NCBI RefSeq assembly: GCF_009905215.1
Contig: NZ_CP047593.1
Span: 2,918,900-2,982,899, forward strand
DNA: 64,000 nucleotides
DNA from: Tichowtungia aerotolerans
GTDB lineage: Bacteria > Verrucomicrobiota > Kiritimatiellia > Kiritimatiellales > Tichowtungiaceae
Direction: 5' to 3'
Positions 37,607-37,739 of the stretch are shown one piece after another (the stretch's first letter is position 1; each line of letters begins with the position of its first letter). The notes beneath the pieces were generated by a model, which made no database searches, was not told the DNA's origin, and saw nothing but the letters and a program-made list of their open reading frames with translations. A program made the translations under genes and the position numbers.

Positions 37607-37635
37607 TTGACATCGCTCGGTCATTTTCGTATATT
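37607..37635 (+). promoter_or_regulatory. Consensus sigma-70 promoter
   Basis: TTGACA (37607-37612), 17 bp, TATATT (37630-37635). The start would be near 37642, giving a ~98-nt RNA that ends in the tRNA/tmRNA-like 3' end with CCA at 37739. Confidence 0.65.
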
Positions 37636-37641
37636 CTTCTT

Positions 37642-37739
37642 GTTGAGAGACTTGCTGAAACGGAATGATCTCTTTTGAAACGACGGAATGCGCGATGGCA
37701 TTCAAGAGGTCAGGGGTTCGACTCCCCTTACCTCCACCA
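37642..37739 (+). ncRNA. 3' end of a tmRNA (or tRNA) gene, probable attachment site
   Basis: AGGGG, TTCGACT, CCCCT (37712-37728) is a perfect T-arm, followed by TACCTCC, A and an encoded CCA (37737-37739). The matching 5' strand GGAGGTA is not found within 300 bp upstream, so it is not a complete tRNA. The stretch before it (GAATGC…GCATTC stem) recalls helix 2 of tmRNA. Prophages often integrate at ssrA and leave such a 3' fragment at one end. A promoter precedes it, so it may be transcribed. tmRNA versus tRNA remains open. Confidence 0.45.

Follow-up and report, generated by a model that had tools for sequence, protein, structure and literature searches.

The locus described here raises the question of why a consensus-like promoter leads into the 3' end of a tRNA or tmRNA that lacks its 5' half. 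The window, i.e., the whole stretch of 64,000 nt that was analysed, corresponds to G000:C1:2918900-2982899 and is part of the single 3.88-Mb contig of the Tichowtungia aerotolerans genome. The locus is composed of the following features:

37607..37635, plus strand: outward-facing sigma70-type promoter (predicted) of a right end, TTGACA-17-TATATT; the same arrangement occurs at other right ends
37642..37694, plus strand: leader from the inferred transcription start to the att core, with the DNA motif AGAGACTT(A/G)CTGAAAC
37695..37739, plus strand: attR core, the 3' part of tRNA-Ala(GGC) from the anticodon loop to CCA without the 5' half, an exact 45-bp direct repeat

A preliminary description of this region had named the promoter, which is present as given and agrees with the consensus in 11 of 12 letters, and an ending in T-arm, TACCTCC-A, and CCA, with which the strand indeed closes at 37739, about 98 nt past the inferred start. 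An attR scar at ssrA or at a tRNA, an expressed tRNA-like decoy, and a piece of a split tmRNA were offered there as explanations.

Positions 37695-37739 match exactly, over 45 bp and on the same strand, a part of the complete tRNA-Ala(GGC) gene at G000:C1:2908050-2908125, which is recognised by ARAGORN and is situated 10.8 kb left of the window. The identity spans the anticodon loop to CCA, and this gene holds the only further occurrence of the 45-bp copy in the genome. The BLAST match between the scar and the complete gene covers 48 nt (E=4.7e-17), and a 24-base pattern of the scar was matched twice in the 3.88-Mb genome, as compared to 0 matches for the reversed pattern. The 5' acceptor strand was rightly described as missing, but its letters are GGGGGTA in the complete tRNA-Ala(GGC) instead of the expected GGAGGTA. 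They leave a G3-U70 pair, which is typical of tRNA-Ala. Likewise, the left attachment site does lie outside the window, at 2908050-2908125, and has not been lost.

In case of ssrA, the genome-wide search that had been proposed revealed a single tmRNA above the cut-off at G000:C1:2271243-2271599 (172 bits), away from the scar. It ends in ...GGGTTCAATTCCCGCCATCTCCACCA and is not identical to the scar, so that a complete gene with a deviating 3' end exists for ssrA, whereas the 3' end of tRNA-Ala(GGC) is the same. The scar itself reached 21.3 bits with the tmRNA model (cut-off 47), matching mainly in the T-arm and the acceptor strand, and neither a tRNA nor a tmRNA was called in the region 37607-37739 by ARAGORN and Rfam at gathering cut-offs. 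Due to the complete ssrA elsewhere, the score below the cut-off, and the different 3' end, the tmRNA and split-tmRNA identities of the scar were discarded; a 5' partner for a split tmRNA was not found either.

An open frame for a tyrosine integrase (Phage_integrase PF00589, E=2.5e-17) is located directly behind the complete tRNA-Ala(GGC) and directed away from it, with its ATG 152 nt after the CCA. The DNA between the two tRNA 3' ends comprises the following features, of which all but the first are numbered by window position:

G000:C1:2908126-2956638, 48,513 bp: integrative element, bounded by the complete tRNA-Ala(GGC) on the left and by attR on the right
1..15903, plus strand: cargo inside the window (PL8 polysaccharide lyase, GH95, sulfatase, others)
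20456..35866, plus strand: phage-like module (exonuclease, primase, terminase, portal, protease, major head protein, small ORFs)
20456, plus strand: exonuclease of the phage-like module
22458, plus strand: primase of the phage-like module
27621, plus strand: terminase of the phage-like module
28901, plus strand: Mu-type portal of the phage-like module
30099, plus strand: protease of the phage-like module
31653, plus strand: major head protein of the phage-like module
35940..37391, plus strand: Schlafen AlbA_2 / HTH protein, the last gene before the right end
37413..37432, plus strand: second candidate pair of the arm type, AAGTGTGG at a period of 12 bp
37541..37560, plus strand: candidate integrase site of the arm type, which consists of two copies of AAGTGTGG in direct orientation at a period of 12 bp and is located 66 nt ahead of the promoter

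The integrase and more cargo of the element are found left of the window. To the right of the integrase, sulfatases, a sodium symporter, an AraC/LacI-like regulator, the PL8 lyase, GH95, and other cargo are followed by exonuclease, primase, terminase, Mu-type portal, protease, major head protein, the Schlafen-like gene, and the right end. With respect to the criteria for phage satellites, terminase, portal, protease, and major head protein are present in the subset of ORFs scanned, one small protein of the element matches tail-fibre families, and no match to tape measure, tube, or sheath was obtained in this subset. A sulfotransferase-like ORF at 33864-34601 (PF13469, E=0.00035, below the family cut-off) is situated in the structural module, behind the gene of the major head protein. 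Close to each end of the element, direct repeats of the AAGTGTGG type are found at a period of 12 bp, the left pair at 8194-8213 of locus L019, and one further AAGTGTGG is located mid-element.

The 130 nt behind tRNA-Ala(GGC) were compared for the six other members of the genus in which this tRNA was matched. Four of them (G003, G004, G007, G008) contain the complete tRNA without the left-end letters of the element, and in G006 and G009 the site is occupied. Since a direct repeat, a complete tRNA gene, an adjoining integrase, arm-like repeats at both ends, and unoccupied sites in relatives coincide, 2908126-2956638 is read as one element, and at the level of sequence the scar is the attR of this 48.5-kb integrative element inserted in tRNA-Ala(GGC). 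The tRNA alternative of the earlier proposal thus holds, as a 45-bp copy of tRNA-Ala(GGC), and its ssrA alternative does not. Taken alone, an attR scar at a tRNA is ordinary, as tRNA-targeting attR sites are already known.

Three paralogues of the integrase are encoded in this genome. At E<=1e-30, matches were obtained in 51 of the 146 genomes searched, including the present one; no relatives were confirmed in viral_contigs. The closer integrases are preceded by tRNA-Ala, Val, Pro, Arg, or Thr, and the start of int is 143-164 nt away from the CCA. For the more distant ones, the tRNA is on the other strand (L031, L034, L035) or no tRNA was recognised nearby (L027, L032, L033, L036). In the core of the right ends L143, L153, and L161, which contain no tRNA 3' half, GGATGGCAAT is present (by eye); the same letters also occur upstream of the integrase in L027.

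Six elements have both ends in one contig, namely the 48.5-kb element of the window, those of 33.9, 55.8, and 52.0 kb in this genome, and those of 40.7 kb (G008) and 50.4 kb (G019). The att repeats match in 41-45 of 45 nt for the elements in this genome and in G008. Terminase, portal, protease, and head protein are common to five of the six other elements compared (three from this genome, one from G008, and one from G019) at 66-98% identity, and the capsid/terminase module is inverted relative to int in three of these five. For the sixth, G009:C40, which is seen over 43 kb, only four smaller proteins matched. The primase of the window element has no match in these six at E<=1e-5, and the sister element at 3382909 contains type III restriction genes and a helicase as cargo. 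The family appears to carry sulfatase and polysaccharide-lyase clusters, and restriction genes in one copy, in bacteria of the Verrucomicrobiota line. Across loci L092, L093, L095, L098, L103, L104, L114, and L115, a conserved capsid/terminase module without recognised tail tube or sheath was observed together with swappable cargo, either sulfatases, PL8, and GH95 or type III restriction genes plus helicase. Tandem junctions, in which a right end is joined to the next left end via a single tRNA 3' half, were observed at L193 (G025:C2:20396-20430) and L168 (G013:C15).

When the 170 nt in front of the att core were scored with promoter frequencies and compared with 300 dinucleotide-shuffled versions, the pair of hexamers reached p=0.003. 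A duplicated promoter of the host tRNA was rejected as its source, since the tRNA-Ala promoter, TTGACT-17-TATAAA (by eye; unscored by the consensus scan), differs. Irrespective of the promoter, 17 right ends that contain a tRNA 3' half were gathered via att repeat, leader motif, arm repeats, or tRNA sequence; their att types are Ala (1), Val (5), Pro (4), Arg (3), Asp (2), Thr (1), and untyped (1). All 17, which are related and do not represent independent counts, contain an outward-directed [T/C]TG...-16/17-[T/C]A...T, and its distance to the CCA end is 103-115 nt. Outside this set are G015:C87, a leader-motif match that reads as coding sequence, L145 with a T-arm-like match within an open frame, L091 and L032 with degraded or different-looking junctions, and, reported apart, L143, L153, and L161 without recognised tRNA.

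In the alignment of 15 right ends, in which the hexamers were assigned by hand according to the aligned position, no variation was seen in columns 2 and 3 of the first and columns 2 and 6 of the second hexamer and nearly none in column 1 of each, and most of the spacer drifts except for a T/G-rich stretch before the second hexamer. When scored free of position, the conserved pair is the best in 8 of the 15 and the best pair is located elsewhere in 7; against shuffles, p<0.05 was obtained in two (0.003 for the window's and 0.02 for own693k), with a combined p=0.001 over related rows. Because the best score against shuffles reached p<0.05 in just 2/15, position was tested instead. The pattern [TC]TG-N19/20-[TC]A-N3-T was found at one common offset in 15/15, at separate offsets in <=2/15, and on the other strand in <=1/15, and its strict form TTG/TA...T in 12/15 at the common offset and in none at separate offsets; this is a post hoc control, as the pattern was written after the alignment had been seen, and it includes two leader lengths, the shorter leaders being moved by 9 nt.

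As held-out cases, two right ends that were recognised later and are near-identical to each other fit the pattern at 142 and 114 nt from the CCA end. In a further held-out test, TTGAC(A/C)-16-TATCAT was found to follow the arm repeat at exactly 66 nt in L143 and L161 (both G025) and in L153 (G024), and this distance was also found in 9/9 counted right ends measured. These three belong to 38 arm-pair sites, 13 of which have no T-arm or int start nearby; besides the three right ends, ten of the 13 are located in long open frames (chance matches), and none of the ten has a promoter at 66 nt. Accordance with tRNA-led units is not required for conservation of the promoter, because the three right ends without recognised tRNA att carry it as well. 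As far as such comparisons can tell, the predicted promoter is a conserved part of the right end of the element and not specific to the site in the window, and the family seems to have a non-tRNA target, too.

The leader motif AGAGACTT(A/G)CTGAAAC is common to three other right ends. A consensus fold comprised 0 pairs over 15 leaders, for which reason a structured leader RNA was discarded, and no Rfam match was obtained over the scar or over the three other junctions scanned. A short RNA starting at the right-end promoter is likely, with its start placed by prediction; the sequence comparisons made gave no sign of a function of its own.

At the opposite end, an intrinsic terminator (hairpin and T-run) was found within about 55 nt of the tRNA CCA in 19 of 21 script-recognised left ends that are distinct in their first 45 nt. 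The two left ends without it are that of the window's element and, in L175, that of a tRNA-Ala element with letters that are found again in G006. This count excludes L214 (no clear terminator) and L223 (terminator), which are left-end-like by eye and were unrecognised by the script, as well as L193, which is situated behind a scar and not behind a complete tRNA. Due to the 19 terminators, the element is considered to usually bring the tRNA not only its 3' half but also a terminator.

What is located beyond the scar was classified by eye for the 17 right ends. A gene or tRNA follows within about 85 nt in four, a terminator in three (own3383k, G015, G024), the left end of another element in three (G025, G013:C15, and, as a remnant, the window's), and an insertion sequence in two (own2588k, G002:C66); nothing clear was seen in five (G008, G010, G032, G013:C5, G004:C69), three of which have a hairpin without T-run.

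Host units that are apparently split by an element are found at tRNA-Arg and tRNA-Pro. In G005, G006, G009, and G012, a complete tRNA-Arg(TCT) is followed by alr (alanine racemase) after 31-53 nt, and alr starts 19 nt (G013) and about 52 nt (G002) behind an attR; its identity was confirmed by Pfam in G005 and G013. With the left end on another contig in G013 and only the right end seen in G002, we infer a split of tRNA-Arg and alr in both because the 5' tRNA half is missing. The arm motifs of both right ends differ, which suggests two separate insertion events. Similarly, a distance of 51-53 nt separates tRNA-Pro from a tRNA-Phe behind it in G014, G023, and G029, and in G019 tRNA-Phe is located 50 nt behind attR, with the element between tRNA-Phe and the tRNA-Pro promoter. 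Such tRNA-led units are not the rule, since alr is absent behind tRNA-Arg in G000 and G010 and tRNA-Phe occurs within 60 nt of 3/24 complete tRNA-Pro loci. For the element at 692589 of this genome, ychF is situated 83 nt behind attR, with a possible weak hairpin in between.

Behind the scar in the window, two features were identified:

37740..37775, plus strand: probable remnant of a left end that belonged to a second, tandem element of the family and was cut inside its terminator hairpin (BLAST; first 11 nt by eye)
37776..39064, minus strand: ISL3-family insertion sequence that cut the second element (transposase PF01610, E=2.3e-58; matching ends at 37776 and 39064)

The BLAST match of 37751-37782 to G000:C1:692443-692474, the left end of a paralogous element, amounts to 91% of 32 nt, the last 7 of which already belong to the insertion sequence. 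ISL3-family insertion sequences were observed 7-36 nt behind the 3' end of a tRNA or att in 5/5 distinct copies recognised in the loci scanned (37776-39064, about 60005-61295, L003 from 1588, L100 9393, L235 from 1563), always with the same end toward the tRNA; the sample is biased, as several of these loci were chosen for their location at tRNAs. This suggests a preference of this family for tRNA terminators as targets.

The conserved promoter, the left terminators, and the split tRNA-alr and tRNA-Pro/tRNA-Phe units form the basis of the reading that we favour. By a tyrosine-recombinase crossover in or near the anticodon loop, the element most likely entered tRNA-Ala(GGC); its own tRNA 3' half let a complete tRNA survive at the left end, and the original 3' half was displaced and forms the scar. 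The transcript from the tRNA promoter would usually end in the left terminator of the element, and the right-end promoter would restart transcription across the scar into the old downstream genes, so that these host genes stay expressed. As the element cannot foresee its downstream context, it would presumably carry the promoter everywhere and profit from it at some sites. The promoter is presumed to be active and of benefit. It is tempting to speculate that the elements of this capsid-encoding family, which land in the genes of many tRNAs, bring along a portable transcriptional splint, made up of a terminator on the integrase side and an outward promoter at the far end, by which tRNA-led transcription units can be broken while genes such as alr or tRNA-Phe behind them are kept from being silenced; this general proposition is tentative, and we would give it somewhat less than an even chance. 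The account of the window itself, an attR of a tRNA-Ala element together with a right-end promoter as one half of such a splint, appears evenly poised between right and wrong. In the copy of the window, the splint has nothing left to serve, because the remnant of the second element and the insertion sequence follow the scar; this copy also lacks the usual left terminator.

A promoter of the Pcirc type is a somewhat unlikely explanation, yet the best of the rivals. According to it, the promoter matters only in the excised circle or in a tandem array, where transcription from it would cross attP and reach the integrase about 256 nt further on, thereby providing integrase for re-integration. The geometry of the circle agrees with this, as the second hexamer is located 104 nt before the CCA end and the int ATG 152 nt behind the CCA in the same direction, and the tandem junction of G025 displays the order promoter, tRNA 3' half, int. 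The Pcirc of ICEclc is likewise an outward constitutive promoter and is listed with the intB13 transcript. The promoter is retained at the three right ends without recognised tRNA, as an element-internal function would require, and this both strengthens the Pcirc-type explanation and weakens that of a rescue of host transcription. An intrinsic terminator between att and int in 19/21 left ends behind a tRNA should, however, stop such a transcript. At the window's copy the Pcirc-type explanation is stronger, because no terminator is present between att and int. Rescue of host transcription and a Pcirc-like role do not exclude each other.

It is improbable that the promoter-like letters are no promoter at all and represent protein sites of the recombination complex (integrase, IHF-like protein, or excisionase). 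Their location between arm-like repeats and core, the fixed 66 nt to the arm repeat, and other conserved DNA around them would suit such sites, but the invariant letters are TTG and TA...T with a mostly drifting spacer of 16-17 nt, and many tRNA-Pro genes of the same lineage have a similar pair, TTGCCA-16-TACACT (by eye). Rather improbable, too, is a control of recombination by transcription across attR or attP, e.g., by disturbance of the excision complex: the promoter is always near the core and always directed toward it, but the same anatomy is predicted by the other explanations. Very improbable is a tRNA-like decoy, a regulatory RNA, or a piece of a split tmRNA; whether the element is integrated or excised, transcription from the inferred start would be expected to yield an RNA of about 98 nt up to the CCA end, but no 5' partner and no consensus leader fold were found, ssrA is complete elsewhere, Rfam matched neither the scar nor the three junctions, and the promoter occurs at every collected right end, whatever the att site.

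The promoter and terminator shared across the family are the noteworthy part of these observations; the scar is ordinary. If the splint exists, it helps to explain how one element family uses many different tRNA genes, and genes behind attR scars are predicted to be under control of the element. A matched pair of terminator and promoter would mean that elements also repair a broken transcription unit. With narrow search terms, no direct case of operon rescue at tRNA sites was found in the literature besides the precedent of HK022 and torS, and a narrow look for a pairing of terminator and promoter at tRNA sites returned none, by which absence in print is not claimed.

Mobile elements are well known to land in tRNA genes, and accounts of this usually end with the restoration of the tRNA. 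As in prophages, genomic islands, and ICEs that are integrated in tRNA genes by tyrosine recombinases, the tRNA 3' half is duplicated, the complete gene is located at the integrase end, arm-like repeats occur at both ends, and the att repeat starts in the anticodon loop. Unlike these, the family described here adds a conserved outward promoter at the right end and, usually, a terminator at the left end, the latter absent from the window's copy. Capsid-forming phage satellites such as cf-PICI, and tycheposons, are further systems for comparison. They resemble the element in an integrase together with its own capsid and terminase, in variable cargo, and, as far as the proteins scanned can tell, in the absence of a tail module, and they differ from it by its Mu-type portal and protease and by the other host phylum.

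The Pcirc promoter of ICEclc is switched on specifically in the circle. In PMC2892462 and PMC9286271, it is described as an outward-facing constitutive promoter; like it, the promoter of the present element faces outward and would face int in the circle, but most relatives of the window element have a terminator between att and int. In E. coli, according to PMC6814406, a promoter of prophage HK022 drives the host gene torS. There, a prophage supplies a promoter to the host gene beside its end, as is proposed here for the element; that case concerns one locus, which is not described there as a tRNA site, and a change in regulation, whereas here lost transcription would be replaced at many tRNAs.
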